NCBI GenBank assembly: GCA_028870115.1
Contig: JAGWQH010000105.1
Span: 1-58,751, forward strand
Reading direction: 5' to 3'
DNA length: 58,751 nucleotides
From: Candidatus Methylomirabilota bacterium
GTDB taxonomy: Bacteria; Methylomirabilota; Methylomirabilia; Methylomirabilales; Methylomirabilaceae
The position numbers and the translations under genes were made by a program. The notes beneath the pieces were generated by a model. That model made no database searches, was not told the origin of the DNA, and saw nothing but the letters and a program-made list of their open reading frames with translations. Shown one piece after another: positions 4,383 to 57,425 of the stretch (position 1 is its first letter; each line of letters starts with the position of its first letter).

Positions 4383-4387
4383 GGCAA

Positions 4388-39924: not shown

Positions 39925-40007
39925 CTGTAACGCGATCCCTCCATGTCTACGACCTTCTGAACTGCCTCCGTCACCCCTGTACGCTGCATCGCCTTTCCCT
40001 ATCCATC

Positions 40008-41147
40008 CTATCCGCAAAGCGCTTGGTAACTTTCCACAGTCTTCCGAGCGACAGCCTCCCAGGAGAAGTGCCGCACTCGATCCATCCCCTTGCGCCTGAG
40101 ATCATCCCTCAGCGCCCCGTCATCCAAGACAGACGCCATGGCTTCTGCCAAGGCGTTGGCATCCGTTGGATCGACCAAGAGGGCTGCCTCCCCTGCTACC
40201 TCCGGCATCGCGGAGGTGTGGGAGGTAATGACCGGGACGCCGCACCCCATGGCCTCCAGGATCGGCAGGCCGAACCCTTCGTAGAGGGAGGGGTAGACGA
40301 AAAGCCGGGCCCCTCGGTACAGATCCGGGAGGTCCTCGTCATCGATATAGCCAGGAAAGCATGTGTGACCCTCAAGACCCAGAGACCTGACTGTGTTAAA
40401 AATCTCCTGCTGTTTCCACCCGCCTCCTCCAGCGATCACCAGCTTAAGATCTCGGTTCGGCTTTTCAGCGAGGAGAAGGGCAAAGGCTTGAAGGAGCGTT
40501 GGGATGTTCTTCCTCGGCTGCAGGGCGCCGACAAACAGGATGTACTCAGGGGAAATGCCATACTTCTGCCTCACCGCTTCCAAGCGGCCTGAGTCGCCGA
40601 ATGGCTGAAACCTTCTCTCGACCCCCTCCGGGATGACGGCAATCCGCCCCCGTTCCACTCCGAGATAGCGAACCGCGTCTTCTTTGCCCGATTCAGAGGG
40701 AACGATGATGAGATCTGCCTGCCTTCGGATAGCCGAAAAGGCCGTCTTGAGCACCAGACGGTATTTCAAGGGGAACGTGTGAGGCATGAAGCAGGCGATC
40801 GCATCGTGGAGCGTGACGACGTACCGCCCTTTCTTGAAAAAAAAGGGGATCCCGGCCTGATCGAGCCCGTGAAAGAGATCGATCTCATCAAGGAACAGAC
40901 CGGCCGGCAGAAAAAGAGATGACCGGAGCAGCGTGCTTTTCACACGGCGAAAGCGATCGGATGGATTGGCTTGAAGCTCGCTAAGAACGCCCCGGTCGGT
41001 TTGCGGAGAGGTAAAGATCACGAACTCCACATCGAGCTGTTCTCGGGCCGAAATCGAAATGAGAGCCTTAACTAGATTGACGGCATAGCGCCCGATTCCG
41101 CCGATTGCCGGCGTCAGAACCTTCCCCTCGATCCCGATCCTCATCAC
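40008..41147 (-). CDS. Glycosyltransferase family 4
   Basis: This 379-residue GT-B enzyme starts with a GTG or the ATG right after it (MRIGIEGKVLTPAIGGIGRY). It has YILFVGALQPRKNIPTLL and PSLYEGFGLPILEAMGCGVP. The C-terminal 100 residues closely resemble those of the next GT4 (HTSAMPEVAGEAALLVDP against HISSLPEVAGEAALLIDP), which suggests tandem duplication. It is the first of three GT4 genes feeding the same lipid-linked glycan. Confidence 0.9.
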   Translation of the reverse strand: MMRIGIEGKVLTPAIGGIGRYAVNLVKALISISAREQLDVEFVIFTSPQTDRGVLSELQANPSDRFRRVKSTLLRSSLFLPAGLFLDEIDLFHGLDQAGIPFFFKKGRYVVTLHDAIACFMPHTFPLKYRLVLKTAFSAIRRQADLIIVPSESGKEDAVRYLGVERGRIAVIPEGVERRFQPFGDSGRLEAVRQKYGISPEYILFVGALQPRKNIPTLLQAFALLLAEKPNRDLKLVIAGGGGWKQQEIFNTVRSLGLEGHTCFPGYIDDEDLPDLYRGARLFVYPSLYEGFGLPILEAMGCGVPVITSHTSAMPEVAGEAALLVDPTDANALAEAMASVLDDGALRDDLRRKGMDRVRHFSWEAVARKTVESYQALCG

Positions 41148-41180: not shown

Positions 41181-41618
41181 TCACGAACTACGCTTTCGCT
41201 TACGGTCCTTGAGAAGTGCCAGGCATTGATCCAAGACATGGCTCGCCTCTTTGAGATAGGCGACCGCATCCTCTCTACCGTAAAGTTCCTGGGGCGAGGC
41301 CCCTGTCTCTTCGTCTCCATAGAAACTGAGCTCGCGCTCCATCCGTAACCTCCGCGAGATCGCCGTCAGCCTCTCAATCTGTCGCCGAAAGGAGAGGGGA
41401 AATTTCTCCTGGTGGCCCTTAAGCAACTGCCCAACATCATGCGTCTTCAAGGTTTCAATCCCTATGTCCCTCAACGACGCCTTCAAAGCCAGCTCAACCA
41501 CTTCCTGCGAGCGTCGGACAACCAGGTTCCACACTCTGCGTCGATTCAGATCCTTTGCCTCCTGAAGGATCTGTTCGGCTTGCCGGAGATAACTTCTGGC
41601 CATATCAGCGTTGGTCAT
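41181..41618 (-). CDS. HEPN-domain protein of a MNT-HEPN pair
   Basis: This 145-residue all-helical protein shows the HEPN pattern ARSYLRQAEQILQEAKDL, then EVVELALKASLRDIGIE and KTHDVGQLL. The canonical RNase motif Rx4-6H is not clear. The start overlaps the stop of the nucleotidyltransferase gene by ATGA, the usual arrangement of MNT-HEPN toxin-antitoxin pairs. There HEPN is the toxin and MNT silences it, in some systems by AMP-modifying it. A toxin role here is by family analogy only. Confidence 0.8.
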   Translation of the reverse strand: MTNADMARSYLRQAEQILQEAKDLNRRRVWNLVVRRSQEVVELALKASLRDIGIETLKTHDVGQLLKGHQEKFPLSFRRQIERLTAISRRLRMERELSFYGDEETGASPQELYGREDAVAYLKEASHVLDQCLALLKDRKRKRSS

Positions 41619-42115
41619 AGTTCAAAAATCTCTCCGGGCCGCAAATCGGGTTTGAGGTCCCAGTAGCGAGTTTTGCCCATCCGGCGGCGGACTGACCTGA
41701 GCTCCTTCAATCGACTTTTCAGGCGATCGAGAACGCTCGCGAAAAAGCCATCCGGGTCAAACAGAATAACCGCATCCTCCACAAAGTCCAGGTAAAAGGG
41801 CCTAAGGGGTACGGCCTCTTCGGGGGTCTGTAGGATGGGGCACACATCGCTGTAAATCTCCTTGCCACGCAGCTCTTTCAATCGCTTCTCGATCCGTTGG
41901 TCCGCCGCTCGGACGCGTTCCAGACGCGCCCTGCGCCCCCGTGGGAGGTTCCTCACCACGACAAACAGATCAACATCCGAATACGGATTCGCTTCCCCTC
42001 GAGCCACCGAGCCGAACAACACGACCGAGATCACGTCGTCTCCCAGATCTGCCCTCAAACCCTGAGCGAACGCCTCGGCCAAGTCTCTCAATCGCCTGTT
42101 CAGCACATCCATCAT
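41615..42115 (-). CDS. Minimal nucleotidyltransferase (MNT) of a MNT-HEPN pair
   Basis: This 166-residue protein carries VVLFGSVARGEANPYSDVDL, the GSxxRG...SDxD signature with both metal-binding aspartates. A longer helical tail follows. It is translationally coupled to the HEPN gene. The predicted role is antitoxin by nucleotidylation of HEPN. Confidence 0.85.
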   Translation of the reverse strand: MMDVLNRRLRDLAEAFAQGLRADLGDDVISVVLFGSVARGEANPYSDVDLFVVVRNLPRGRRARLERVRAADQRIEKRLKELRGKEIYSDVCPILQTPEEAVPLRPFYLDFVEDAVILFDPDGFFASVLDRLKSRLKELRSVRRRMGKTRYWDLKPDLRPGEIFEL

Positions 42116-42132
42116 CTATTATCCCGCAATCC

Positions 42133-42561
42133 TCACCCTTCCCGCCTCTTTCCCTCGCGCGGCTCGAAGCGAATCAGCAAGCGCGATCTGGTCGCCTCCG
42201 CCAGGCGCTCCAGTGTACGCATCGACGGACGCGTGCGCCCGCTTTCCAGCCGGGCGACAACGGGTTGCGTCGTCCCCATTCTTCTGGCCAGTTGCTGTTG
42301 CGTCAGGCCGGCGCGATTCCGTGCCTTGATTACGGCCGACGCCTTTTGCCAACAGGCCAGCTTGGTGACAACCAATGTGAAGCCCTTCCCGATGCCCGAC
42401 CTGAATGTTTTGACCATGGACGAGCAGGGCGCGCTCGTCTGGGTCCTACCAACTATTCGAAGGCCTGCCCCTTGATCCAGAAGGCGAAAGATCTTTAGGT
42501 TCGTGATCAACCCTCTGGCTCCAGCGTTCATTAACTCAATCGAATCGCTCAGCTCCCACAT
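42133..42561 (-). CDS. XRE-type HTH protein, orphan antitoxin-like, N-terminus doubtful
   Basis: The last about 65 residues are a clear HigA/XRE helix-turn-helix (IKARNRAGLTQQQLARRMG, TTQPVVARLESGRTRPSM, LERLAEA). They end with RLLIRFEP, typical of HigA-like antitoxins. The first about 70 residues (from 42561) have no homology and look like read-through of unrelated DNA. The functional start is perhaps near 42350. No RelE/HigB toxin is next to it, and the frame's 5' end overlaps the end of the protease gene. A truncated or orphan antitoxin is the likeliest reading. Confidence 0.6.
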   Translation of the reverse strand: MWELSDSIELMNAGARGLITNLKIFRLLDQGAGLRIVGRTQTSAPCSSMVKTFRSGIGKGFTLVVTKLACWQKASAVIKARNRAGLTQQQLARRMGTTQPVVARLESGRTRPSMRTLERLAEATRSRLLIRFEPREGKRREG

Positions 42562-45029
42562 ACTGTGGGGATCAGGCCCTGAAACTCCGTCGAGGGGATG
42601 AAGCCCGCGTTGATGATCTCAAGCAGATGAGTTCGCAGGAACCCCTCCCAAAAGTCGAGACCACCCGGGTCGGGGTTTCGCCCCAGAAAGGTTCGATATA
42701 GAACGGTCACGTAGTCCCGGAAGGTCAAGGCTCGGGCCTCAAACTCTGGCGAGGCCGAGAACGCTACCGCTGCTCCCTCCAGATCCCCTGTCGCCACGAT
42801 GTGATCAACCCAAAAGGCTAATCCGGCGGGTTCGGGGGCTCGCCCGAGGATCTCCGTGTAGAACCGGGTGACCACGGCTGTGACCGCTGCACGGTCCGTA
42901 CGATCAGGCAAGAGACTCTGGAACTCCGCCGAGAGAATGAACCCCTCCAGGGCCAGGGAGAGACGTTCCTGACGAAACTGGTCGGCCCAGAACACCAGGC
43001 CGCTGGAGTCGGGATCCCGCTCTAGGAAGGTCCGGTACAGCACCGTCACCAGCCCCGTCAGGGTCAGCGGCCGTACGGTCCGAAACTCCTCGGAGTCGAA
43101 GAAGGCCTGGGCGATGGTGCGGAACCCGTCAGGGTTGCAGTTGGCCCTGAGAAAGCCCGCCCACGCTGCTAGCCCTGCTTGGTCGGGCGTTCGTCCTAGA
43201 ACTTGTACATAGAGGCCCGTAACGAACGCAGAAATAGCATCTTTGAATTGGACCGCGGTGAGGGCGTCGATGCGTCCGAAGCCGAAGGTATTGTTGGGGA
43301 CCGGGGGACCCAAGGGCACAGCCGTCTGAGTCAGTCTGGCTGACAATTGGGCTGGCGTGAATGTTGGATTCGCGCCCAGCACGAGAGCCGCAGCGCCAGC
43401 CGCATGGGGAGCGGCGGCAGAGGTTCCAAAGAAGGAAGTAAATCCGGCAACACTGGTCGTAACACCGTCCGGAGCGACAAGTTCGGGCTTTACCCTGCCG
43501 TCGCTCGTAGGTCCGTGGGAACTAAAGAATTCGATCGCATTCGGTGTTTGCCAGTTGACCGCCCCAACGGAGATGACGCCGCCCCCAGCGTCGCCTCCAT
43601 TCGGAACGCTCCCCGCGGGGACTACAAACTCGTTCATCACACCGCCGAGAATGAACAGATCAAACACTCGTGGGGCAGCCCCGCCTACCCGATGAATGCT
43701 CACCCCGATAGTAACAGGCGTGGATCCATTGTTTGTGACGAAACCAGCCTCTGTAGGGTTTTGAGTCCCGGTCTGAGGGTTTGTAGAGCAACCCAGTGGC
43801 GAAGCAGGAACATCGGGTGGATAGTGGACGCACAGATCGTAGTTATTTGTAGAGCCGCCAAAGGGATCATTCCATTGCAAGATGATTGCAGCTATCGCTC
43901 CTGGCTGGATGGTCACATTCAGCGTCTCACCCGCATTATCGACTCGGGGAAGCCCAAGGCTTACATCGAACTCATGGAAGGTATCCCCATCGGTATCGGT
44001 GAAGAGGCCCCGATAGTGGCGTTGGGCATAGTTGCCGACCGAATGGAAGTAAGAGACCCCGCCGGCAACAGCATTGGACGCCTCCTGGGAAACCACACTC
44101 GTCCCATCGTAAGGCCCAACATTGAAGAAACTGATATCGTCGGCGATCACCTTGACGCCTTGAGATTTCAGCCACCGGATTGCCCTCTGGTCGGCGAGCG
44201 TCGTACCGCCGAACGGCGCGAAGAATAATTGGGCATCGGGGGCGATATCATGAATGATCTCAAGCAGCGCCGTGCCCTCAGCGCCCGACGTCAGATCTGA
44301 TCGACCTACAGGGGTCACCGTAAACGTCGCGCCTCCGGGCAGCGGGCTGTCGAGCGAGATGCCGCCCCCAGTGAGCGGAGCGGCTGGCATGGTAATCCCT
44401 GCGGCAGGCAGATCGCCAGAGGCTATGCTGGAGGTGAGGCTGTTGACCCCATCGGAGATCACACCCACCTTGACGCCGTTGCCCGTGATGCCCTGTGCCC
44501 GCACCTGATCGGCCCGGATGACCGCGTCGCCTTGCGTCATCACAGAGCCGGCATAGGTCATGCCGTAATTCGGAAGATCGACAAAGGTTACACTGGGGAG
44601 ATCCGCGACGGCCTGCACTTGAGACGGCGCAATCCAGCCCTGGACCAGTCGCTGCGAGACATCATAGATTTCAATCTCCACCCCAGAATCCCGAAGGGCG
44701 TTGAGCGCGCTTTCATTCACGTGATCCAGGGTGATGTAAACCTCAACTCTCCCCTGCTGATCGAATCGAGCGAAGCCCGACAGTCTTTCAGTCAAGGGGA
44801 CGGGTGTGAGACCAGGCTGTGTTGACAGCGGTGCGGTGCCCCCCGCCTGCGTCAGCCTCGAGGCGATCTTCGGGTGGCCTTTGGACTCAGGCCATATCTG
44901 AGTGTTCGGAGCTGACAGGCCGCCCCCAGAAAAAAGCCAGTCAGATGGCTGGGCTTCACTCTTCGTACTCTTGTCGTACGCCAGCAGTAACGCTACCACA
45001 GCAATGAAGGCCGCTTTTCGCTTCATCAT
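42549..45029 (-). CDS. Secreted S8 subtilase with prodomain and four DUF4214-like modules
   Basis: The protein has 826 residues. A signal-peptide-like start (MKRKAAFIAVVALLLAY) is followed by a prodomain (about residues 85-165). The divergent subtilase domain has Asp in VKVGVISDGVN (about 190), His in LEIIHDIAPDA (about 260) and Ser in GTSAAAPHAAG (about 535). The tail from about 600 has four modules of about 55 residues with YVQVLGRTPDQAGLAAW, LYRTFLERDPDSSGLVFW, FYTEILGRAPEPAGLAFW and LYRTFLGRNPDPGGLDFW, the DUF4214 pattern often seen in exported proteins. The lipoprotein gene 73 bp upstream is a stand-alone version of the prodomain. Confidence 0.88.
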   Translation of the reverse strand: MMKRKAAFIAVVALLLAYDKSTKSEAQPSDWLFSGGGLSAPNTQIWPESKGHPKIASRLTQAGGTAPLSTQPGLTPVPLTERLSGFARFDQQGRVEVYITLDHVNESALNALRDSGVEIEIYDVSQRLVQGWIAPSQVQAVADLPSVTFVDLPNYGMTYAGSVMTQGDAVIRADQVRAQGITGNGVKVGVISDGVNSLTSSIASGDLPAAGITMPAAPLTGGGISLDSPLPGGATFTVTPVGRSDLTSGAEGTALLEIIHDIAPDAQLFFAPFGGTTLADQRAIRWLKSQGVKVIADDISFFNVGPYDGTSVVSQEASNAVAGGVSYFHSVGNYAQRHYRGLFTDTDGDTFHEFDVSLGLPRVDNAGETLNVTIQPGAIAAIILQWNDPFGGSTNNYDLCVHYPPDVPASPLGCSTNPQTGTQNPTEAGFVTNNGSTPVTIGVSIHRVGGAAPRVFDLFILGGVMNEFVVPAGSVPNGGDAGGGVISVGAVNWQTPNAIEFFSSHGPTSDGRVKPELVAPDGVTTSVAGFTSFFGTSAAAPHAAGAAALVLGANPTFTPAQLSARLTQTAVPLGPPVPNNTFGFGRIDALTAVQFKDAISAFVTGLYVQVLGRTPDQAGLAAWAGFLRANCNPDGFRTIAQAFFDSEEFRTVRPLTLTGLVTVLYRTFLERDPDSSGLVFWADQFRQERLSLALEGFILSAEFQSLLPDRTDRAAVTAVVTRFYTEILGRAPEPAGLAFWVDHIVATGDLEGAAVAFSASPEFEARALTFRDYVTVLYRTFLGRNPDPGGLDFWEGFLRTHLLEIINAGFIPSTEFQGLIPTVCGS

Positions 45030-45102: not shown

Positions 45103-45537
45103 TCAATCTTCCGATCGATTAGTGATACCGTAATTAGGTAAGTCGAGAAATTTCACGAACGGGAGGCCTGCCACCTCTCGGAGTCGCTCCATCGGGACCC
45201 AAGCCTGCACAAGGTGCTGAGCCGGATCGTAGATCTCAATGGAGCACCCACGAGCCTGCAGCTCCTTTAAGGTGTCCCCGGTAACCTCCGTCATGTCGAT
45301 CATAACTTCCAGCCGGCCGGCTTCATCCAGGCGAGCTCCCTGAAGTGATCTCATTCCCTGGAGCCCCCTATTCCTCTGGGCGGAAGTGCCCTCCACCGCC
45401 TGCATGAGCGAGAGCAATCTCGACGAGACATTGGGCAGGGGACCCTTGCCTGCCGTGCAGGCTACCAGGAAGATATGTGCCATCATGAGAACCGCACAGG
45501 CCGCCACGCGCGCCCTCCCGTCGATCGGTTTCCTCAT
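45103..45537 (-). CDS. Lipoprotein resembling only the subtilase prodomain
   Basis: This is a 144-residue product from the ATG at 45537; an open frame continues 14 codons further. The signal peptide ends in the lipobox LVAC, so the mature protein should be lipid-anchored. Residues about 70-140 run parallel to the prodomain of the following protease: GRLEVMIDM against GRVEVYITL, IEIYDPAQHLVQAWV against IEIYDVSQRLVQGWI, and FLDLPNYGI against FVDLPNYGM. It stops exactly where the protease would continue into its catalytic domain. Subtilase prodomains act as folding aids and tight inhibitors, so a stand-alone inhibitor/chaperone is plausible. A truncated duplicate gene is the alternative. Confidence 0.75.
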   Translation of the reverse strand: MRKPIDGRARVAACAVLMMAHIFLVACTAGKGPLPNVSSRLLSLMQAVEGTSAQRNRGLQGMRSLQGARLDEAGRLEVMIDMTEVTGDTLKELQARGCSIEIYDPAQHLVQAWVPMERLREVAGLPFVKFLDLPNYGITNRSED

Positions 45538-45848
45538 GGGGCGAGATGATAATTGCTTGGATAGCATGCGGCTTGACAAAGAGAGAGCCTACGCACGCCG
45601 TGGAAAAATCTCAATTCGGACGAAAACCGAACCAGCCGCTGCGCCGATCTAACCAGGACCCTTGACGCTATCGAACCCTTCCGGTCATTCTGGCACTGCC
45701 TCTCGGCGGGGCAAGGCCCGCCAGGCTGTCGAAGGTTCGGCCAATCTACCCGCTCCTTCACGGGGTGAACTGGAAAGGCTGCACCGCGAGGCTGAGCCGA
45801 TTCGCGGGTTGGAAGGGATCGGTTCCCGCCGCCACGATGCCCGCTCCC

Positions 45849-46206: not shown

Positions 46207-47652
46207 TTACTGGATGATCTGCGCGGTGGGAGGAAGTAAAACGGCTGTAGTGCTTCCAAGGCCACTGCCGCTAGAGAAGGATTTTTGCACAGAACCACGC
46301 ACCCCGCGGTGGATGCAATCCGACCGGGACATCTCAGCCTGAGCGTTCGAAGCCGGCCAAGAACCGCCCACAATCTGGCCGTAGAGGTCATAGACATTCC
46401 TGCCGACCACATCCCATGTATGGTGCTCTACTACTTTCTTATAGCCTGCCTCTCCTAACCTCTTGGCCAACGCAGGGTTCGAAATCAACCACGCGCTTCT
46501 TTCAGCTATCTCCTCGGCACTCGCGCACAGATACCCATCCTCTCCATCCTCGATGACGGAGGCGACTGACTTACAAAAGGCGTTCCCAATTACCGGCTTC
46601 TTCCTCATCCAGGCCTCCAGAAACACCATGCCAAAGCTTTCGTATTCTGACGGCAGCAGGAAGACGTCACAGGCATCATAGGCGTTGAGTAGATCGCCCC
46701 GAGGAACTTTCCCGAGATAGAGGACGTTAGACGAAAGGATCGGCTTTCTGTCCACATCGTTCCCGACCATGACCAGTTTGACCCGCTCGTCGTCGATGAG
46801 ATCGATAGCCTCGATGGCTAGGTCGTAGCGCTTGGAAGGTTCCTTCCGACCCACGAACAGGATTATCTTCTTTCCCACCAAACCGTACTTCGCTCGAAAG
46901 CACTCCCCAGAGATTCCAGGATCTGTAAAAACCTTATCGTCTACTCCAGGCCCAACTTGGATCGGCTTAGAACCTGGAAAGAGCCGTCTGAAGAGTTCAG
47001 CGCTATAAGGAGTCTGGGCTAGGATCGCATCCGCCTTGGAAAAGCACCGGTAATAGGCCCTAAAATGATGGTAAATGTCATCGGGATGGAATAAGGCTAG
47101 AATCACAACAGGCTTCTTGAACACCCTGGCGATATGGGTTATCTGCCAGATCATGGCGAAGGGCATGAAGCCCACGAGGAGGACATCGTAGCGTTTGATG
47201 GATCGTATGATACGGGCAAGGAGGGGGAAGGAAAAAGGACCACGCCCCAAGAGGCTCAGCCAGTCATAGATGAAGGGACGAGTGACAGCTCGTTGAAAGT
47301 AGTAATCTATCAAATTCTTCGAGCCCTTGATCATGATCCCATACCGCCCTTCCTCTCGCTGCCACCGCCTAAACATCAGTCGAGAGATGACATGGCCCAT
47401 CGCTGCCGGAATCGAGAAGGTAGCAGGAAAACGGTAGATATCGATGTCGTCCGCCTTCTCGAACCCCTCGTCATACTCATTAACCCATTTGAGCGAAAAC
47501 GCAGAGGTCGGTTCAGCCTTCTTTGACCGGGTCGTCAGTACATCTACCTCAACCCCTACCTCGACCAATTTCTTCGAGAGCATGTACTCGTGGTACTCAG
47601 CTCCATGGATTAGATCAGGACCAAAGAAGGGAAAGATGTGCAACGCCCTCAT
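46207..47652 (-). CDS. Glycosyltransferase family 4 with an aberrant C-terminal tail
   Basis: This 481-residue GT-B enzyme starts MRALHIFPFFGPDLIHGAEY. It has IILFVGRKEPSKRYDLAIEA and the EX7E-like LPSEYESFGMVFLEAWMRKK. The glycosyltransferase domain ends around NVYDLYGQIV. About 50 further residues, rich in Ser/Gly and without homology (NAQAEMSRSDCIHRG and on), lead into the recombination scar. The original 3' end was therefore probably lost. It is the last gene of the Wzm/Wzt-linked cluster in transcription order. Confidence 0.87.
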   Translation of the reverse strand: MRALHIFPFFGPDLIHGAEYHEYMLSKKLVEVGVEVDVLTTRSKKAEPTSAFSLKWVNEYDEGFEKADDIDIYRFPATFSIPAAMGHVISRLMFRRWQREEGRYGIMIKGSKNLIDYYFQRAVTRPFIYDWLSLLGRGPFSFPLLARIIRSIKRYDVLLVGFMPFAMIWQITHIARVFKKPVVILALFHPDDIYHHFRAYYRCFSKADAILAQTPYSAELFRRLFPGSKPIQVGPGVDDKVFTDPGISGECFRAKYGLVGKKIILFVGRKEPSKRYDLAIEAIDLIDDERVKLVMVGNDVDRKPILSSNVLYLGKVPRGDLLNAYDACDVFLLPSEYESFGMVFLEAWMRKKPVIGNAFCKSVASVIEDGEDGYLCASAEEIAERSAWLISNPALAKRLGEAGYKKVVEHHTWDVVGRNVYDLYGQIVGGSWPASNAQAEMSRSDCIHRGVRGSVQKSFSSGSGLGSTTAVLLPPTAQIIQ

Positions 47653-47656
47653 AGGC

Positions 47657-49027
47657 TTACCAAAAGATGACGGAGGAAACCGCTATCCCCACCGTCCTCC
47701 GAAAAGGATCCACAAAACCTCTTTCGGTTACCAGGATCAGCTCGTAAAACCCTCCCTCCAGGTTCAAAGAGCAAACCCGCTCCTCCCACGATGAGGAGGC
47801 AGTGAAGGAAACCTCTAACTCTGGCTCGATCTCTCCCAACCGTCGGAGGACGACCTTGACCTCCTGCTGTGCCCATGGAGTGCGAAGCATAATGGAAAAA
47901 GACCGAATGGGAGACGTGAAGTGGAAGAAGGCCGAGGCCTGGGGCTCTATCCACCGGTAGCTGATCAGGCCGTCTCTTTCCAAGTCGTACCAGCCGAAAT
48001 TCAACTGCCAGAGGTCAGTAGTACCATCACTGATCAATCGGCTTCCCGCTCGCCTTAGATCAGGTTGAAAGGCGAGATTATTAGGAACAGGCGGTGGGAA
48101 AAAGCGCCAAGAAGGATGAATTAAATGCCAGAAGGAGCCCCTTTTAAACGTAAATCTCAAACGCCATTTCAGAGCAGAAGGAAGGTGGAAAAGGTTCCAT
48201 GCCCAAGCTTTGACTGGGATGCTCCAACGGAATTTGAGATGATGCAGAAAGTGACAGAATTCTCGAAGAAACCAATAAGGTAGCTGGCTCAGGGGATAAT
48301 ACTTAAGGACTGTTCGGATCCTTGCCTTTTCGCAGAGGTAGATCTTATCCGGAAGGAACTGGTCAGAATGGCCTATATCATGATCCACCCAGGCGTTTGG
48401 CGAGACGACTACCCGGAACCCCAGCTTCCAGATCCTGATCCCTAGCTCTGTGTCCTCGTACCATTTGATGGGAAGAGGGTCGAGCGGTCCGCATTGATCC
48501 ATCACGCTTCTCCGGATCACCATTCCAATTGCCATAGAGTAGAGGACCTCATAAGGGAACTGGGCAAACTCATATGGGGCATTAAAAAAGAAGTCCCCCC
48601 CGTAGCCCTGTAAGTTTATCGTCCCTCCTGCTCCATTCAGGATGATCTTCTTTTTGTTGAAAAATACCGTGGAAGCAACTGCTCCTATCCCCTCATCCGA
48701 TTCAAGCGTCCGGACGGCTTCCTCGAGCCAGTTTTTATCAGCATATCCATCATTATCCATATAGGCAATGATGTCTCCCTTGGCATGGAGGAAGCCAAGG
48801 TTGCGGCCTCTTGGCACCCCTAGGTTCCTTTTGCTACTGACCACGGAGACTTTCCCAGTACTCAGGTACTCCTCAAGGATGACAAGGCTTCCGTCCGAGG
48901 AGCCGTTGTCGACCACAATAATCTCGAAGTTGGAATACGTCTGCTTCAATAGATGATCGAGGCATTTTCTGATGATCTTCTCACCGTTGAGGTTCAGGAT
49001 GATGATGCTAACAGTCTTCGACTCCAC
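47657..49027 (-). CDS. Glycosyltransferase family 2 with C-terminal extension
   Basis: This 456-residue GT-A enzyme starts SIIILNLNGEKIIRKCLDHL. It has EIIVVDNGSSDGS, an Asp-rich YMDNDGYAD metal site and KWYEDTELGIRIWKLGFRV. This is the rhamnosyltransferase-like (WbbL) type. From about residue 310 the tail has no GT2 motifs and looks beta-rich; it may bind glycan. It lies next to the O-chain methyltransferase and exporter genes, so it probably helps build that chain. Confidence 0.88.
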   Translation of the reverse strand: MESKTVSIIILNLNGEKIIRKCLDHLLKQTYSNFEIIVVDNGSSDGSLVILEEYLSTGKVSVVSSKRNLGVPRGRNLGFLHAKGDIIAYMDNDGYADKNWLEEAVRTLESDEGIGAVASTVFFNKKKIILNGAGGTINLQGYGGDFFFNAPYEFAQFPYEVLYSMAIGMVIRRSVMDQCGPLDPLPIKWYEDTELGIRIWKLGFRVVVSPNAWVDHDIGHSDQFLPDKIYLCEKARIRTVLKYYPLSQLPYWFLREFCHFLHHLKFRWSIPVKAWAWNLFHLPSALKWRLRFTFKRGSFWHLIHPSWRFFPPPVPNNLAFQPDLRRAGSRLISDGTTDLWQLNFGWYDLERDGLISYRWIEPQASAFFHFTSPIRSFSIMLRTPWAQQEVKVVLRRLGEIEPELEVSFTASSSWEERVCSLNLEGGFYELILVTERGFVDPFRRTVGIAVSSVIFW

Positions 49028-49035
49028 ATCAGCCC

Positions 49036-50484
49036 CTATTTCTTCCCAATCACCGCATAATCGGAGCTACCATAAAGCAGCTTGTTGAGATACTCGGTCG
49101 CGTCATTGAACCGGCATAGCGCTTCATGGGGATAGTCTCGAATCTCAAGCGGAGGAATCGTCAGAGGGCCTGCCGGGGCAACGAGGAATCGCGATACAGT
49201 CTCATCAAATCCAACCGACTCGAAGAGGAACTTCAGCATCTCGGGATGGATCAAGCGGATGTGGGTAAGATCCATCCAGAACCATTTGAAGTGGACAAAC
49301 AGGGATTCAGGGTTAAGGGTCTCCAGAACCAGAATACCCCCGGGCTTCAGCTTCCGGTGGCATAACTTTACCAAATGGATGATCTGACCTGACTCCAGGT
49401 GCTCGATCACCTGGGCGGCGAAGATGCCCCCGAGGGATTCATCAGCCAGGGATTCAAGGTGCGAAAAGGCATCCATCCTAATTACGTCCAAACCCTTGTC
49501 CTGGCAGTGGAGCGCCATATCCAGATCAAGATCCACCCCTTTGGCTTTGATCCCAGCCTCCTGTAGAAGCTCCAAGAACTCTCCTCGCCCGCAGCCGATA
49601 TCCAGCACGTCCCCTTTACCCAGGAAATACTCGATATAATTCCGCTGGCGCTCCTTTACGTCGGCCTCACTCCCTCGGAATCGGTCCTCAAAGGCGAAGT
49701 AGTCAAAATCGGGCTCGAGAGATAGGTCGGGCACTTTCTTCGCTTCGACTTGAGCCGTGGGTCCTTCCGCTATGCGAGAGGACATCAAGCCCTTCCCTAC
49801 TGCCTGGTCATCCGTCAACAGATAGAGGATCCGTCGAAGCTTTCGCTCCGCGCCGGAGACTCGCTTCCGCACCACATCAAAGGCCTGAGCATGCCCTGTT
49901 GGGACTTCGTTCTGCAACCGCCGAATCTCCTGCGAGAGTATCCCCGGGACCTCTTCCCGAAGCTGCGCCTGCAGTTCCGCGATAGCTTGCAGTTCCTTCG
50001 CCTGCTGCTCCGCGATAGCTTGCAGTTCCTTCGCCTGCTGCTCGCTTAGCTCCTGGCGAAGCTGCACGTGCTGTCGGATGGTCTCAATCTCCTCCTCCAG
50101 ATGCGCGGCAATCCTGGCGTTAGCCGCATTGTAGGCGACCTGCCGCGTAAAAATTGGGTTGAGGAGCTTCTGAAGGATTTTTTTTACGATGACGATAAAG
50201 GATCCCAGGAATTTCCGGTGAGAAGTGAAGTGTACGCGATAGACATCGTAGCCGGAGCGAAGGGCGGCAAGATCGGCCGCCATCTGGCCATCGGTCTGTA
50301 GGGGCGGGGTCCCATTCCCTGTTCCGTAGGGGCGGGGTCCCATTCCCTGTTCCGTAGGGGCGGGGTTTATCCCTGCCTGTTGAGCGGAAGGGCAAAAGCC
50401 CTCCTCTCCGGTTCGCTTCCTCCGGATATTCTCTCGAATCCGGTCCATGACCTGTTCTACGTCGATCTCTTGCAACTCGTCCAT
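49036..50484 (-). CDS. SAM-dependent methyltransferase with N-terminal coiled coil (O-chain terminator candidate)
   Basis: This 482-residue protein begins MDELQEIDVEQVMDRIRENI, a start seen in O-antigen cluster methyltransferases. Residues about 38-66 come from a 28-nt tandem repeat. Residues about 115-215 form a coiled coil containing the repeated QQAKELQAIAE. The class I methyltransferase domain (from about 270) has GDVLDIGCGRGEFLELL and AAQVIEHLESGQI. In ABC-type O-antigen systems such as E. coli O9a, a coiled-coil methyltransferase (WbdD) caps the chain and measures its length, and Wzt recognises the cap. The neighbours wzt and wzm fit that role; a kinase domain as in WbdD is absent. Confidence 0.85.
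   Translation of the reverse strand: MDELQEIDVEQVMDRIRENIRRKRTGEEGFCPSAQQAGINPAPTEQGMGPRPYGTGNGTPPLQTDGQMAADLAALRSGYDVYRVHFTSHRKFLGSFIVIVKKILQKLLNPIFTRQVAYNAANARIAAHLEEEIETIRQHVQLRQELSEQQAKELQAIAEQQAKELQAIAELQAQLREEVPGILSQEIRRLQNEVPTGHAQAFDVVRKRVSGAERKLRRILYLLTDDQAVGKGLMSSRIAEGPTAQVEAKKVPDLSLEPDFDYFAFEDRFRGSEADVKERQRNYIEYFLGKGDVLDIGCGRGEFLELLQEAGIKAKGVDLDLDMALHCQDKGLDVIRMDAFSHLESLADESLGGIFAAQVIEHLESGQIIHLVKLCHRKLKPGGILVLETLNPESLFVHFKWFWMDLTHIRLIHPEMLKFLFESVGFDETVSRFLVAPAGPLTIPPLEIRDYPHEALCRFNDATEYLNKLLYGSSDYAVIGKK
49978..50043. repeat. Two exact 33-nt repeats in the coiled coil
   Basis: Units 49978-50010 and 50011-50043 are identical and in frame, each encoding an 11-residue coiled-coil turn (EQQAKELQAIA). 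A gain or loss of units would change coil length without a frameshift. Confidence 0.9.
50298..50365. repeat. 28-nt tandem repeat near the methyltransferase N-terminus
   Basis: Two exact 28-nt units (50298-50325 and 50326-50353), each starting GTAGGGGCGGGG, and a 12-nt partial third (50354-50365) are seen. As 28 is not a multiple of three, each unit is read in a different frame, and a copy-number change would shift the frame. Confidence 0.9.
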
Positions 50485-50510
50485 TTTATCTTCCTTCCAA
50501 CTTGCCGCTC

Positions 50511-50545
50511 GTTGCAGGGGAGGGCGTCAAGCCCTCCCCTGCAAC
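50511..50545. repeat. Perfect 15-bp hairpin between wzt and the methyltransferase gene
   Basis: GTTGCAGGGGAGGGC (50511-50525) and GCCCTCCCCTGCAAC (50531-50545) surround a 5-nt loop. The wzt stop codon sits in the loop, so the last residues of Wzt (LQGRA) come from the element. It may attenuate transcription into the downstream genes. Confidence 0.75.
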
Positions 50546-51870
50546 CCAGGCCGGATGGCCCACCGATGCGGGACCCGGAAGACCCCCACGTCCTGCACCT
50601 CCGAACTGACCGAGAACGGACACAAACGGCTGTGGTAATCGTAGGGAGCGCCGTCCTCGCGATGGACAGCCACATCCAGGCAATACCGCCCTGCGATCAA
50701 GTTGAGCGATTTCAGATAGACCTCTACCACACCTTCTCGACCAAGAGGGGGAATGGATATCTTCTCAGTTTGCGTGTTAGTCCCATAACACCACAGCCCA
50801 TCCTCCCTGATGATGGCGAACCCAAAGACCGTCTCCTCCACCGCGTGATGCACCTGGTAGCGAATTTGCACCGTGGCGCCTTCGCCGCTCTGGTACAGGG
50901 ACCGCTCCTGACCATGCTGGTCAAGAAGCCGAACGGAGACGATCTCGATCTCCCCGCTCCCCCACCGCCGCCCACCTCCCCTTTCCTCGCTCTCCCTCTC
51001 GTCAGAAACCCCCTCTTTTGTACTGGGAGGTTGGGGAGATGTGATGGTAAGGGCTGGGGGAGCATCCTCGGAAATTTCGATCTCCTCTTCGAGCACCTGA
51101 TCCGACACCCCGGCACCTGCCTCTCGGTCAGCAACGGCCTGAAGGTACAGTCCGATCACCTGCTCCGGCGTCCCCCGCACACGCACCGCCCCTTCATCTA
51201 ACCAGACCACCTCATCGCACCACCGCTCCGCCGCAGAAAGATCGTGGCTGACAAGGATGATGGTCTTTCCTTTCCGCTGAAATTCGACGATCTTCTCGGC
51301 GCACTTCTTCTGAAAGATCTCATCCCCCACCGCCAGGACCTCATCGATCAGGAGGATGTCGGGGTCCGTATGGACGGCAACGGCAAAACCCAGGCGCATG
51401 TACATCCCGGAGGAATAGGTCCTCACCGGCTCGTCGATAAAAGGTTCCAGTTCAGCGAAGTGGACGATCTCCGGAAATCGCCTCTTCACCTCCTTTTTGG
51501 TAAGACCGAGGACGATCCCATTGATAAGGACATTCTCTCTCCCGGTGAACTCCGGGTGAAAGCCGGCCCCCAGCTCGAGGAGCGCGGAGACCTTACCATT
51601 CACTTCGACCCTCCCGCTATCCGGTTGGAGAATTCTCGCCAATAGTTTCAACAGCGTACTCTTACCGGAGCCGTTGCACCCGATGATACCCAAGGTCTGA
51701 CCCTGTTCGACGGCCAATGTGACGCCTCTCAGGGCCTGAAAGCTTGACTCTCGCTTGGGTTGGCTCTGACCTGCGAAAAAGTTCACGAGAGAGGTTTTCA
51801 AGGTGGTGTGGGAGACCACCGTCCGCATCCGGAACTGCTTCGAAACGTTTTCGACCTCGATGGCTCTCAC
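50527..51870 (-). CDS. wzt: O-polysaccharide ABC exporter ATPase with substrate-binding domain
   Basis: This 447-residue protein has an ATPase domain (about 1-240) with Walker A GCNGSGKST, signature YSSGMYMRLGFA and Walker B ILLIDEVLAVGDE. A C-terminal Wzt domain (about 315-440) with IEIVSVRLLDQHGQ and FGFAIIREDGLW recognises the chain terminus in known systems. The linker (about 270-310) contains SPQPPSTKEGV, which is translated from a repeat of the CCTCCC-AGT-AGAGGGG type. wzm precedes it by 15 bp. Confidence 0.93.
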   Translation of the reverse strand: MRAIEVENVSKQFRMRTVVSHTTLKTSLVNFFAGQSQPKRESSFQALRGVTLAVEQGQTLGIIGCNGSGKSTLLKLLARILQPDSGRVEVNGKVSALLELGAGFHPEFTGRENVLINGIVLGLTKKEVKRRFPEIVHFAELEPFIDEPVRTYSSGMYMRLGFAVAVHTDPDILLIDEVLAVGDEIFQKKCAEKIVEFQRKGKTIILVSHDLSAAERWCDEVVWLDEGAVRVRGTPEQVIGLYLQAVADREAGAGVSDQVLEEEIEISEDAPPALTITSPQPPSTKEGVSDERESEERGGGRRWGSGEIEIVSVRLLDQHGQERSLYQSGEGATVQIRYQVHHAVEETVFGFAIIREDGLWCYGTNTQTEKISIPPLGREGVVEVYLKSLNLIAGRYCLDVAVHREDGAPYDYHSRLCPFSVSSEVQDVGVFRVPHRWAIRPGLQGRA

Positions 51871-51885
51871 ACTCTACACCTCTTC

Positions 51886-52680
51886 CTACACCTCTTCGGC
51901 AAAAGAGCCTTTGAAACGGTCAAAGACCCGAATCCCGATCAGGTACACCATGGCCGCCACAAGGCCGGTCCCCCCCAGGGCCCTCCAGTGGGGAAGTCTA
52001 TTATAAAACAGACCATCCTGGTAGGCAATGAGGGGGGAAGCCATCGGGTTAAGGATGAGGGTGAAACGGAACTGCTCCGGAATCTGAGAAGCCGGGTAAA
52101 GAACAGGGGAGAGAAAGAACCAGAGCATAAGGAGATTAGAAAGAAGCTGGGAGAGATCCCGGTACCGGGGTGTCAGGGCCGAGACGATTAAGACGAGGCC
52201 CATCGTCAGAAGAAGCTGGATCACCATGACAGGGAAAAGAGCCAGGGATGCCCATCCGATTTTGACCCTAAACACGAAGAAGAGAAGGAAGAGAAGCGGA
52301 AGACTCAGGAGAAAGTTCACGGTATTGGCCAGGACAGTGACCGTCGGGAGGATCTGGAGAGGAAAGAAGACCTTCTTGATCAGGCCTCCCCCTTCGACGA
52401 TGGAGGTTGCCCCCATCAGGAGGGACGAGGCGAACCAGCTCCATGGCAGTAACCCTGTCAGAAGAAAGGGTGTGTAGTTCTCCATCCCGTTCCGCATGTA
52501 CACGGAAAAGACCAGCCCATAGGTCGCCATCAGGAGTAAGGGGTTGAGGAATGTCCAGAGAAAGCCCAGGACAGATCCCCGGTAGCGAACCTTCAGATCC
52601 CGAACCACCAGGCTCTGGATCAGAACGCGGTAGGCATGCAGCTCTCTGAGGTGGGCAATAACGATTTTTCTTCCAGGCAA
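51886..52680 (-). CDS. wzm: O-polysaccharide ABC exporter permease
   Basis: This 264-residue ABC-2 type permease has six hydrophobic segments. The conserved region VRDLKVRYRGSVLGFLWTFL precedes the first helix, and LNPMASPLIAYQDGLFYNRL lies in the late loop. It forms the channel for a polyprenyl-linked O-chain with Wzt. Confidence 0.92.
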   Translation of the reverse strand: MPGRKIVIAHLRELHAYRVLIQSLVVRDLKVRYRGSVLGFLWTFLNPLLLMATYGLVFSVYMRNGMENYTPFLLTGLLPWSWFASSLLMGATSIVEGGGLIKKVFFPLQILPTVTVLANTVNFLLSLPLLFLLFFVFRVKIGWASLALFPVMVIQLLLTMGLVLIVSALTPRYRDLSQLLSNLLMLWFFLSPVLYPASQIPEQFRFTLILNPMASPLIAYQDGLFYNRLPHWRALGGTGLVAAMVYLIGIRVFDRFKGSFAEEV

Positions 52681-52684
52681 GGGC

Positions 52685-54997
52685 TCACTGCGAGAGCAGC
52701 GTCACAGACACTGCAGCCAGGTTGGTGATCCAATGTTGGCGGTCCATGGGATCGGTTCCAGGATCGACGCCAAGGGCGAAGAAGGTATACGTGCCGAGAG
52801 GAAAACTATCCGGGATCTGCACCGAGAGGACCTGGCCGCCAACGTCCACGACCTTTGCGGAGGAGACGACTGGAGTTGGGGTCGCGCTAAAGGTCTGCAA
52901 GCCCGGTCCGGCGAAGAAGATAGTGCCATCGGGCACCTGGACCCCGAACCAGAAGTCGATAACTTTTGGATCACGGCCGGCTTGAATCGCCACAGCAACT
53001 GCTAAGGTCTCGCCGGGGGTAAAACGAGGCTGGTTGGTTGAAAGCACGATTCGTGGTGTCGCCGGCTTGACAGCAGAGGCGGCGTCAAGCTTGCCGAACC
53101 CCCATTTTGCATTCGGGACTCGCCCTGTGAAGAAATCGGTCCGGCTCGAAGAGGTCAGGATCCCACGAGCCAGATCGGCGTCGAGGCGCGGGTTCTTTTG
53201 GAAGAGGAGCGCCACCGCCCCGGCCACATGGGGGGCAGAGAAACTTGTCCCCTGACCGATGGCGTGAAGGCCGTCGTGGAGAACAAAGCGCTGGTCAGGA
53301 AAGATACTGGTGTCCCCGGGGGCGCCTGGATCAGTATCCTCCGAAAGGGCGGAGCCGATAACACGCCCGGGGGCCGTCAGCTCCGGCTTGATCCGTCCAT
53401 CTCGGCTGGGCCCGGGACTTGAGAAGAAGGCCAAGTCTCCAATAGAGCTATTGGTGATCAGAGACCACGTCCTCCCGAGGGTGTCTGTCCACTGGTTCTT
53501 CGTCACATGGGCACCGACGGTGACGGCGTGGCGCGCTGTTCCCGGGATACCAACCACGCTCGTCAGATCCACGTGATCACTGAAGGTCGCATCGCCATCA
53601 ATCCAGCCATCAAAGCGGCCGCTCACCACAGCCTGTCCAGAGATGGTGATCGTGAAAAAGGGCGCCCTGCTTGTCACGAACAGTAACTCCTTGCTCCCGT
53701 TCACCGGATTGAGCACCACCTGATCGCTGATATCCTCAGGGGCGAGACCACCTCCCTCGATCACCGCAGTGAACGTGTCGCGACCATCGAACCAGAAGTC
53801 GAAGATGGAAGCCGCCGATTCAAACTGAGAGACTTTGATGGTCACACTCTGATTAGGGGCGCCTGCCGGACCAAAAGAGCCTTTGGCATGGATCGGATTA
53901 CCCCCATCGTTTCCAGCCGCGACGGCGACAGCCTTTCCAGGCTTTCCAGGACCAACAAGGCTGTCGATGGCCAACTCGTCCAGATCTGTCCCATCGTGAG
54001 CTCCCACCTGGGTACCCAGGCTCAGATTGATGACATAGGGGCGTCCCATCTCCGCCGCCTTCTGGTCGATGAACTGGAAGGCCTGCACCAGGTCGACATC
54101 GGCGTCCAGGAACTCACATGTGGGGCCGAAGACCCGGACGGCCACAATGTCCGCCTCCGGGGCCATTCCAATGAAGGTCGCCGCGGAAAATGCCGATTGA
54201 CTTACCCCGCCATTTCCGGCGGCCACACCAGTGACATGGGTGCCGTGGCCGCATTCATCGCGCACACTGACCTTGCCACGCCCTTTAAGGGCCGCATTGA
54301 TCTGGCTCTCTGTGTACACGGTCCCCGCGCCTCCCAAGGGTGGCGGAGAACCAATCGTTCCTTGCGATTCCTCAAAGCTCCGATCAGAGGGGTCCCAGAG
54401 GAATTTGATTCGCGTTGAACCGTCCCGGCGCCGGAAATCCGGATGACGCCAATCGAGTCCGGAATCGATGATCCCGACGACAACTCCCTTCCCTGTTATG
54501 CCGCTGAAGGTTCCAAACAACCCGCGGCTCCTGAGCTGATTCGCCCGGGTGTCCGGGACGCTGCGATCCAGGACAGGTCGATATCGCGTCGCCCCTTCGA
54601 CATACACAACGTCCGGCAAGCCGGCGAGGGACTCCAGCCGATCAAGGGGAACAGCGGTAGAAACGACATGTCCGATGTGACCCTTAATGGCAAACCCAGC
54701 CTCCTCCAGTTGCGCCGTTCCTCCTTCCCGCATCAGAACGAGGGCACGCACAGCCGCCCGAGGCTTTCCTGGATCAAGGCCGAAGTGCCTGGCGAGAGCC
54801 TGAAGCCCTGGACCATGAGGAATCGAGGCCTCCCGTCGAATCAACTCGAGCCCCGCCCCTATCGTCCCACCCCAAGCCTGAATCGGGAAGGAACCACCCA
54901 AAACAATCAGGAGCATGCCGAGGCAAACAGCGTAAAGGTACCGCTCATTCGTAGTCGGTTGTCCTGGCATCCCAATGACCCGTCCAGTATCACGCAC
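52685..54997 (-). CDS. Secreted S8 subtilase with prodomain
   Basis: The protein has 770 residues. A signal-like hydrophobic stretch (YLYAVCLGMLLIVLGGSFP) is followed by a prodomain (about 75-145). The subtilase domain has Asp in VVGIIDSGLDWRHPDF (about 177), His in ECGHGTHVTGVAAG (about 252) and Ser in GQGTSFSAPHVAG (about 583). An insert of about 150 residues between His and Ser contains a PPC/PA-like beta region. The C-terminal about 120 residues (from RIVLSTNQPRF) form a beta domain ending in WITNLAAVSV. The triad is complete. A 113-residue prodomain-like gene lies 4 bp upstream. The GTG at 54997 is the likely start; the ATG at 54970 is possible. Confidence 0.88.
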   Translation of the reverse strand: MRDTGRVIGMPGQPTTNERYLYAVCLGMLLIVLGGSFPIQAWGGTIGAGLELIRREASIPHGPGLQALARHFGLDPGKPRAAVRALVLMREGGTAQLEEAGFAIKGHIGHVVSTAVPLDRLESLAGLPDVVYVEGATRYRPVLDRSVPDTRANQLRSRGLFGTFSGITGKGVVVGIIDSGLDWRHPDFRRRDGSTRIKFLWDPSDRSFEESQGTIGSPPPLGGAGTVYTESQINAALKGRGKVSVRDECGHGTHVTGVAAGNGGVSQSAFSAATFIGMAPEADIVAVRVFGPTCEFLDADVDLVQAFQFIDQKAAEMGRPYVINLSLGTQVGAHDGTDLDELAIDSLVGPGKPGKAVAVAAGNDGGNPIHAKGSFGPAGAPNQSVTIKVSQFESAASIFDFWFDGRDTFTAVIEGGGLAPEDISDQVVLNPVNGSKELLFVTSRAPFFTITISGQAVVSGRFDGWIDGDATFSDHVDLTSVVGIPGTARHAVTVGAHVTKNQWTDTLGRTWSLITNSSIGDLAFFSSPGPSRDGRIKPELTAPGRVIGSALSEDTDPGAPGDTSIFPDQRFVLHDGLHAIGQGTSFSAPHVAGAVALLFQKNPRLDADLARGILTSSSRTDFFTGRVPNAKWGFGKLDAASAVKPATPRIVLSTNQPRFTPGETLAVAVAIQAGRDPKVIDFWFGVQVPDGTIFFAGPGLQTFSATPTPVVSSAKVVDVGGQVLSVQIPDSFPLGTYTFFALGVDPGTDPMDRQHWITNLAAVSVTLLSQ

Positions 54998-55001
54998 ACG
55001 A

Positions 55002-55343
55002 TCACCTGGCAGGGCCGAACTCTACGGGAGGCGGCGTGATCCGGAATAGCTCGGGAAGGTCGATGAGAACGACCTCGTTGATTGCGGTTATGGCGGGGAT
55101 ATTAGAAGCCTGAATGCGCCCGCTGACAACGCTGCCGACTATGCCTTGAACCGTCAGTCCCTTTTCCTGCAGCTTCTCCTGAAGGGAAGGCGTGAGGTTT
55201 CCCTGGATCAGGATCACGACATTCACGCTTTCGTCCAGCCGGTGCTGGGTCGTGAGCGCCTGAAGCAAAAGGATCAAACCGGACCCGATCTTTGCCGGCT
55301 TCAGCGCTATCCACTCAGCGGTCACGGATCCACCCATCACCAT
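55002..55343 (-). CDS. Stand-alone subtilase-prodomain-like protein
   Basis: This 113-residue protein aligns by pattern with the prodomain of the protease that follows it: VNVVILIQGNL against VRALVLMREGG, GLTVQGIVGSVVSGRI against GFAIKGHIGHVVSTAV, and AINEVVLIDLP against GLPDVVYVEGA. It ends before any catalytic motif. No signal peptide is evident, so export is uncertain. It is sandwiched with a 0-bp gap after the upstream small secreted protein and 4 bp before the protease, in one transcription unit. GGGGAAGTGA precedes the start. The role is inferred: a separate inhibitor or folding helper. Confidence 0.65.
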   Translation of the reverse strand: MVMGGSVTAEWIALKPAKIGSGLILLLQALTTQHRLDESVNVVILIQGNLTPSLQEKLQEKGLTVQGIVGSVVSGRIQASNIPAITAINEVVLIDLPELFRITPPPVEFGPAR

Positions 55344-55730
55344 TCACTTCCCCTTCTTCTCCGTAGCCTGCTCTTGCAATGCCCGGCCGTGCTGGATCAG
55401 GATCTCTCCCATCTTTACCATCAGCTCACCTTCGAGAACCAAGGCACGCCCTGCCGCCTCGGGATCGGCCCAGAAGCCTGCTCGCATCTCCGGACCCAAG
55501 AGTTGAAACATCGGATATGCCGCGTCACCGGATTGAGGAGCGCCCTGGCCTTTGGATTTCTGGGCAAGGAGACTCAATAGCGGCCCATAAGCCCCAGCCC
55601 CACCTATCCCCTCCAGCATCTTGGGCTTGCCGCCAACCTCGCTCCCCGGTTGAGGCTGCTGCTGGGCCGAAGTGAGATCTGCCGCAGCCAGGACAGCCAC
55701 AAGAGCCGATACGAACAAAACTCTTTTCAT
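55344..55730 (-). CDS. Small secreted protein, function unknown
   Basis: This 128-residue protein has a clean signal peptide (MKRVLFVSALVAVLAAADLTSAQ). A Gly/Gln-rich linker and an alpha-helical end (GRALVLEGELMVKMGEILIQ) follow. I start at the ATG at 55730, because the upstream codons are polar and would bury the signal peptide. No family recognised. It directly precedes the prodomain-like gene and probably belongs to the same operon. Confidence 0.7.
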   Translation of the reverse strand: MKRVLFVSALVAVLAAADLTSAQQQPQPGSEVGGKPKMLEGIGGAGAYGPLLSLLAQKSKGQGAPQSGDAAYPMFQLLGPEMRAGFWADPEAAGRALVLEGELMVKMGEILIQHGRALQEQATEKKGK

Positions 55731-55816
55731 CACGCTCCCCTCCCCGTCCGCATATGCAAAGATCAGAGGGGCCCAGAGTACGGGCCCCTCTCCAAAAGCC
55801 GACCTCCCGGAAGACA

Positions 55817-56299
55817 CTACGGAGTAGTGAAAAAGAACGGTGCCTGTATATTGAAGGCGCCAGTGTCCGGGTTGAAAGTGATAAGCTCTGCAAAAAACAA
55901 GACATTGTTATTCGGCGCGCGATGCGCGATTACCTGACACCCCGGGCTTGGGCACGGCACAGAGAGGCCGACTCCAGGGGCAGGTGGCGTGACAAATACG
56001 CTTCCTAGTGCAGGTAGTAGCACTTGGACGCTGCCTCCAATCGACCCGCCTGAGAAGAAGATCGAATCGACGGTGACAGTTAAGTTGTTTATAGTGGTCA
56101 AATTCGAAATAGCCAGCACCCACTGAAATCCGGAAAACCCGTTGAGAGCAATCGGGAAATACTCATATGTGTTATTTGGCGGGAAATCTGCTGGAGTGAC
56201 GTCTTGAGGTAACATCGGATAATTTGCTGCTAAGGCAGAGTTACAGGGAACCCACAAGAGCGCGGCAAGCAGCACTGCGGTCGTAAACCCCTTTTTCAT
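55817..56299 (-). CDS. Secreted beta-rich protein, function unknown
   Basis: This 160-residue protein has a signal peptide (MKKGFTTAVLLAALL, then WVPCNSALA). The mature part is rich in Asn, Gly, Phe and beta-branched residues (YEYFPIALNGFSGF, NLTTINNLTVTVDSIFFSGG). Two cysteines (SVPCPSPGCQV) may form a disulfide. It looks like a small extracellular or surface beta-sandwich; no family recognised. GGAGGGGGC precedes the chosen start. Confidence 0.7.
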   Translation of the reverse strand: MKKGFTTAVLLAALLWVPCNSALAANYPMLPQDVTPADFPPNNTYEYFPIALNGFSGFQWVLAISNLTTINNLTVTVDSIFFSGGSIGGSVQVLLPALGSVFVTPPAPGVGLSVPCPSPGCQVIAHRAPNNNVLFFAELITFNPDTGAFNIQAPFFFTTP

Positions 56300-56811: not shown

Positions 56812-57387
56812 CTAAGGGTTGACCGTGGAACGCTGAGGTACCTCTACCTCCTTCAGGAGTTGCTCATCAATGATCACTTTCTCCCGCTTCCATAATTCCG
56901 TTTTCGTCTTTTGTATAAGATCGCCCATGCTATTTTGTAGAAGTTTCGCCTTGATCTGTCCCTCCACTTCTTTCAACCCCTTTCCCTGAAACTCGCCTTG
57001 GTGGCCCTCAAAGAACGCCATAACCTCCTTATCGCCGATGGAAACCCCTTGGGCCCGAGACTTCATATACTCCTGCGCCAGGATGTTCGTCCGAGCCTGA
57101 TTAAGCTTGACCTTCACTGGCGGCGCCTGATCCAGGCCCATTCGGACCGCTTCCCTGGCGAAAAGCCGCTGGTTGATCAGGCCTTCCAGGAGCTTGCGCT
57201 TCCTTGCCTCAGCATCACCCTGAGCGCGGAAGGCCGACAGTGCGGGAAGCATCTCCTGAAACTCCTGGAGTGTGATTTTCTCCTCTCCCACTCTTGCTAA
57301 AATCTTTTCATCCGCCGCCGCGAATGCTCCGGCTCGCCAGAAGATCAGGAAGGCACCGACTGCTACCACCATACGTTGTTGTCTCAT
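56812..57387 (-). CDS. SurA/EpsD-like periplasmic chaperone lacking a PPIase domain
   Basis: This 191-residue protein has a signal peptide (MRQQRMVVAVGAFLIFW...AFAAADEK). The SurA N-terminal pattern ILARVGEEKITLQEFQEM, then KLLEGLINQRLFAREAVRMG and VMAFFEGHQGEF, follows. The parvulin-type isomerase domain that should follow is absent; the chain ends in a helical segment (QIKAKLLQNSMGDLIQK). EpsD-type proteins of exopolysaccharide systems share this layout. It may chaperone the exported proteins encoded just downstream. Confidence 0.75.
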   Translation of the reverse strand: MRQQRMVVAVGAFLIFWRAGAFAAADEKILARVGEEKITLQEFQEMLPALSAFRAQGDAEARKRKLLEGLINQRLFAREAVRMGLDQAPPVKVKLNQARTNILAQEYMKSRAQGVSIGDKEVMAFFEGHQGEFQGKGLKEVEGQIKAKLLQNSMGDLIQKTKTELWKREKVIIDEQLLKEVEVPQRSTVNP

Positions 57388-57425
57388 CAGCTCCGCTCCC
57401 AAGTACAAGTAAAATACGCTATTAC

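Follow-up and report, generated by a model that had tools for sequence, protein, structure and literature searches.

Prodomains of subtilases are textbook single-use intramolecular chaperones. The 58,751-nt stretch of DNA from a Candidatus Methylomirabilota bacterium analysed here in full (contig JAGWQH010000105.1; hereafter the window) encodes two such proteases of the S8 family, P0002 and P0003 (protease 1), each preceded by a small gene whose product (helper2 and helper1, respectively) resembles a prodomain. This raises the question of whether such pairs represent a repeated design, as the first-pass annotation proposed, or one accidental truncation, and what a stand-alone prodomain might do for the protease encoded next to it. 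The features discussed below are collected in Table 1. The pairs had been described as lying ten kilobases apart, which holds for their starts (~10 kb), but the gap between them is only ~7.1 kb. Both sit within a polysaccharide synthesis and export cluster (window positions 38809-41147, 46207-52680 and 56812-57408, minus strand), which comprises genes for glycosyltransferases, a methyltransferase, a Wzt/ABC-2 exporter and an EpsD-like prolyl isomerase.

Table 1. Features of the two protease pairs of the window, and of the tandem duplication in a genome of the same genus (G006)
Feature	Position	Strand	Basis or content
helper2, stand-alone S8-prodomain-like protein, 113 aa	55002..55343	-	ORF bounded by stops; alignment, predicted fold
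P0002, S8 subtilase, 770 aa from GTG	52685..54997	-	PF00082, motifs, signal peptide, own prodomain
prodomain2 (inside P0002)	54503..54868	-	predicted fold and PDB fold matches
P0005, small secreted protein upstream of helper2	55344..55817	-	signal peptide from internal ATG 'MKRVLFVSALVAVLAAADLTSAQ'
helper1, predicted lipoprotein resembling a stand-alone prodomain (lipobox FLVAC)	45103..45579	-	sequence; Ka/Ks
P0003 (protease 1), subtilase fold	42549..45029	-	GTSA Ser, four C-terminal DUF4214 repeats
G006 duplication, L079 (G006:C30:28500-33241)	2380-2438, 2492-2805, 3047-3360		tandem partial copies of subtilase gene 5' end

On the minus strand the gene order is P0005, helper2, P0002, followed by an ABC-2 permease and a Wzt-type ATPase. 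The TGA of P0005 abuts the ATG of helper2 with no gap, the two ORFs share a frame, and a Shine-Dalgarno-like stretch, AAGGGG, lies 6 nt before the helper2 ATG, within the end of the P0005 gene, a layout that is likely one for translational coupling. Codon-position G+C of helper2 (0.62/0.40/0.72) is coding-like. The two ORFs of the pair are as annotated, and the 4 bp reported between them assume the GTG start of P0002; with the ATG at 54970, which we regard as the likelier start because the signal peptide points to it, the gap is 31 bp.

P0002 matches PF00082 with 133 bits (cut-off 21.8), in a match split by a ~130-aa insertion in the catalytic domain, and its Asp, His and Ser motifs are intact (VVVGIIDSGLDW, GHGTHV and GTSFSAP). 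It has its own signal peptide and a complete prodomain of its own. Its best NCBIfam matches, CspBA and CspC, score 114 and 94 bits where the curated cut-offs are 1250 and 675, and by sequence it represents a subgroup related to the Csp germination proteases rather than a member of that family. A close relative of its catalytic domain, in genome G061 (L197), has a prodomain like that of P0002 and no helper. The other close relative is a Csp-like S8 ORF in G085 (L114; G085:C364:1-9000, 2614-4424, plus strand), which has neither a prodomain nor the catalytic-Asp region and is directly followed by a signal-less prodomain-like ORF; it may represent a split system, or the gene may be defective. This is the only protease found without a prodomain; P0002 itself does not show the feature that defines the ASP type, a protease without its own propeptide.

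The kinship of helper2 with prodomains was assessed at the level of both sequence and predicted structure. Its Smith-Waterman score is 74 with prodomain2 (shuffle maximum 55, 0/1000 shuffles as high) and 56 with the prodomain of protease 1 (reached by none of 1000 shuffles), which bears out the earlier claim that it is closer to the former; with helper1 it is 41 (17/1000 shuffles as high). Identity to the prodomain is low, 23-26%. A suggested comparison of each helper with its neighbour gave the same answer for helper2: of the 105 S8 N-termini compared across the phylum, that of P0002 ranks first (z 12.2, next 5.9). The predicted core of helper2 is βαββαβ, with pLDDT about 90, and in a Foldseek search the best 14 of 14 PDB matches of the model are subtilase prodomains (probabilities 0.91-1.00, no E-value below 0.02), among them CspB (4i0w_A), pro-subtilisin E, Tk-subtilisin, the BPN' prosegment (1spb_P) and cucumisin; CspB is the closest match to the predicted structure. 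The model of prodomain2 shares this fold and gives PDB matches of the same kind, both models being built on 7-12 sequences, with termini of low confidence. The predicted folds thus agree, where a difference had been named in advance as evidence against the kinship. Neither Pfam nor NCBIfam yields a match for helper1, helper2 or the type A and type B helpers described below, and PDB sequence searches with helpers are likewise without a match. Helper2 has a gene of its own (a 113-aa ORF between stops) and is not cut from a larger precursor, as is characteristic of I9-type proteins; the helpers are nevertheless not filed as I9, because they match no Pfam Inhibitor_I9 or other curated prodomain model.

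As to the other pair, helper1 had been credited with a signal peptide; it is indeed predicted to be exported, as a lipoprotein and not merely as a secreted protein. P0003 keeps its own prodomain (about residues 80-165), and since both proteases of the window do so, the two helpers are extra copies, not displaced prodomains. In P0003 and its type A relatives the GTSA serine is kept, while the position of His64 of subtilisin is occupied by Glu (EGTA[ML]LEI[IV]HD), reminiscent of the Glu of sedolisins. Directly downstream of protease 1 (window 41181-42561, minus strand), genes for an HTH protein, a nucleotidyltransferase and a HEPN protein stand in a row, resembling an MNT/HEPN toxin-antitoxin system.

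To survey recurrence, 110 S8 places in 95 Methylomirabilota genomes were compared, with their neighbouring ORFs, all against all, and a helper/prodomain profile was used in addition. Three main groups of helpers were found. Type A, that of the protease 1 family, comprises stand-alone prodomains upstream of the protease in the window, in G001 and in G013 (all with lipoboxes) and in the Rokubacterium G072 (with a signal peptide); it is absent from G010 and G011. Type B, corresponding to prodomains of the VRVIVEL kind, is represented by 12 intact helpers directly upstream among 19 proteases, the remainder including one with a decayed helper and one that runs into a contig edge; a lipobox is present in at least four type B helpers (L174, L176, L117 and L164). 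Type C is helper2. The helpers end shortly past the position that matches the end of the prodomain. In three Rokubacteria (G063, G047 and G052) the type B protease has no adjacent helper, and the helper (L203, L204 and L205, respectively) is encoded elsewhere in the genome, unlinked to any S8 gene. Overall, a type B helper is present in 16 of the 17 genomes with a type B protease vs 3 of the 78 without (these three including a broken helper and one at the edge of a contig; hypergeometric P 2.9e-14, kinship ignored). L206 (G070:C274, 2128-2538, plus strand) is a type B helper in a genome without an S8 match at E 1e-6, and may be an orphan or have a protease that is missing from the assembly. 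Decay has also been found: the helpers of G044 (L183) and G054 (L209) are degenerate, and the type A helper of G003 (L084) is frame-broken.

Several candidates were not counted. The ORFs at L168, L142 and L144, which matched prodomain queries from other loci, appear to be translations in the wrong frame; that at L195 is the frame-shifted prodomain of the protease itself. A scan of the whole collection with A3 returned only the two known loci and one Planctomycetota protein, which is not a stand-alone helper, and a tblastn search of plasmids with two helpers gave no match.

The phylogenetic tree of type B sequences places eight Rokubacterial helpers in one clade (97/89) and fifteen prodomains in another (98/93), with largely matching sub-branching, which suggests that the Rokubacterial helpers go back to an old duplication and have been inherited together with the protease. 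The helper/prodomain label changes only three times on this tree (two changes being forced by well-supported branches; 0/500 shuffles as low), and therefore type B helpers likely arose more than once. In G006, which belongs to the genus of the window, the helper is placed in the tree as sister to its own prodomain (86/73), and the first 314 bp after the helper stop, among them flank from before the ATG, align to the helper region at 83.5% (E 1.5e-82); an older third copy has left a trace. A stand-alone prodomain gene has arisen here recently, through tandem duplication of the 5' end of the protease gene. Where selection could be tested it is purifying, with Ka/Ks of 0.30-0.47 for helper1 (about 0.30 vs two congeners) and 0.26-0.65 for pairs of type B helpers.

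As regards the initial question, these results speak for a repeated design and not for one accidental truncation: upstream helpers occur in at least two unrelated S8 subgroups and in many genera, with the co-occurrence, largely congruent trees and purifying selection described above. A count of such loci in the phylum had been called for, and amounts to pair 1 of the window with three relatives, plus 12 loci of another subgroup. Conservation of the pairing holds for the design across the phylum but not for the pair of helper2, as no orthologue of helper2 or its operon was found in 14 congeners. Helper2 is thus private to its species and a weaker case than the rest of the design.

We consider it somewhat more probable than the contrary that helper2 acts in trans on the neighbouring P0002, as an inhibitor and folding aid. 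It would be a subtilase prodomain copied into a gene of its own, in the same operon as a protease that retains its prodomain. Most helpers of the phylum, which have a signal peptide or a lipobox, would encounter the protease once exported, and the lipidated ones would hold it at the envelope. Helper2 was noted early on to lack an evident signal peptide, unlike helper1, and this stands: the in-frame codon before its ATG is the TGA of P0005, and no hydrophobic segment is seen upstream in any frame. Because of this, its action would be expected in the cytoplasm, prior to any export, provided that its function is not being lost. Gene order, homology to the neighbouring prodomain and the predicted fold are shown, as are the recurrence of the pairs, their co-occurrence and tree congruence, the selection acting on related helpers and, in one relative, a birth by 5' tandem duplication; binding, inhibition, chaperoning and the place of action are what we infer. 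Against the trans role count the low identity, the absence of an orthologue, the small number of sequences behind the models, the low confidence of their termini and the high Foldseek E-values; moreover, helper2 and the signal-peptide-bearing P0002 would be able to meet only before export, and, as P0002 keeps its own prodomain, a second one is in principle not needed for its folding.

The absence of both a signal peptide and an orthologue also suits a different explanation, which we regard as rather unlikely, namely that helper2 is the remnant of a partial duplication of the 5' end of the protease gene, now decaying after the loss of its signal peptide, while the design is real elsewhere. Its start, MVMGGS.., weakly resembles the end of the P0002 signal peptide, IVLGGS.. 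(30/2000 shuffles as good), as if the front had been lost, and the decayed helpers of relatives demonstrate that such genes do degenerate. On the other hand, the frame of helper2 is open over its full length with coding-like base composition, it has a Shine-Dalgarno-like site and is tightly coupled to P0005, its predicted prodomain fold is complete, and a neutral copy at 23-26% identity would hardly have kept its frame.

It is less probable still that the helpers are mainly external foldases for their proteases rather than regulators of activity. The model would be the ASP protease of Aeromonas sobria, which requires ORF2 from its operon, a chaperone and inhibitor in one (PMC5638518), and the G085 protease without a prodomain, with its prodomain-like gene directly downstream, could be read in the same way. 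However, ASP is propeptide-deficient, whereas P0002, P0003 and the type B proteases keep a prodomain that should suffice for folding, and the G085 protease, lacking also the catalytic-Asp region, may be defective. Finally, occasional readthrough of the single TGA between P0005 and helper2, which are in the same frame, could yield an exported fusion by means of the P0005 signal peptide, but we deem this very improbable, as frames coincide by chance in 1/3 of cases, a TGA followed by an ATG with a Shine-Dalgarno-like site fits ordinary termination-reinitiation, and no homologue of the fusion was found.

Beyond the action of helper2 in trans, the phylum-wide pairing suggests a bacterial design of protease plus separate inhibitor or chaperone. 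In its most general form, which we put forward only tentatively, Methylomirabilota would have a two-gene plan for exported subtilases, in which the prodomain segment has been copied to a product of its own, often anchored by a lipid, by which the mature protease is held or inhibited at the envelope, through several independent 5' tandem duplications followed by co-inheritance with the protease. If prodomains have repeatedly been copied to co-inherited genes, these pairs would be natural systems in which to test cognate specificity and regulation in trans, and the phylum would display the birth of stand-alone protease inhibitors, with one locus caught early. Matching no curated family, the helper genes would be annotated as hypothetical. 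In the open-access literature searched, we found no bacterial case described in which a prodomain gene stands beside a subtilase with its prodomain retained.

Separate prodomain-like inhibitors and chaperones are already known in principle, so far mainly from eukaryotes; TgMIC5, POIA1, yeast PBI2 and Arabidopsis SPI-1 are stand-alone propeptide-like proteins of the MEROPS I9 type, to which the helpers would supply a bacterial counterpart. Plasmodium SUB1-ProM is likewise a prodomain-fold protein encoded separately beside subtilase genes, and is a selective inhibitor of SUB1, a protease that has not lost its prodomain (PMC6993865). SUB1-ProM and its kin differ from the helpers in being eukaryotic, with no lipoprotein form reported and no Pfam family in common. 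Among Bacteria, ASP and ORF2 of Aeromonas sobria also combine a subtilase with a separate partner from an adjacent gene of the same operon, and the C-terminus of ORF2, a chaperone and temporary inhibitor, occupies the ASP active site; however, orf2 lies downstream of a propeptide-deficient protease, whereas here the helper lies upstream and the prodomain is kept (PMC5638518). In the dentilisin operon of Treponema denticola (prcB-prcA-prtP), a small lipoprotein gene upstream of the subtilase is needed for the protease to appear, but PrcB has been described as lacking homologues beyond oral treponemes, and not as a prodomain (PMC8167434). PopD of Myxococcus xanthus, which keeps the subtilisin-like protease PopC in the cell before secretion, offers a model for a signal-less helper2, with the difference that PopC has no signal peptide and P0002 has one (PMC6434023). 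CspB of Clostridium is both the closest fold match of helper2 and the nearest named family of P0002; when provided in trans, its prodomain both rescues folding and obstructs the active site, with specificity for the cognate enzyme, although in nature it is part of the same polypeptide and the supply in trans is an experiment (PMC3567191). This work, on the subfamily nearest to P0002 and to the fold of helper2, provides the best support for the proposed role of helper2 in trans.
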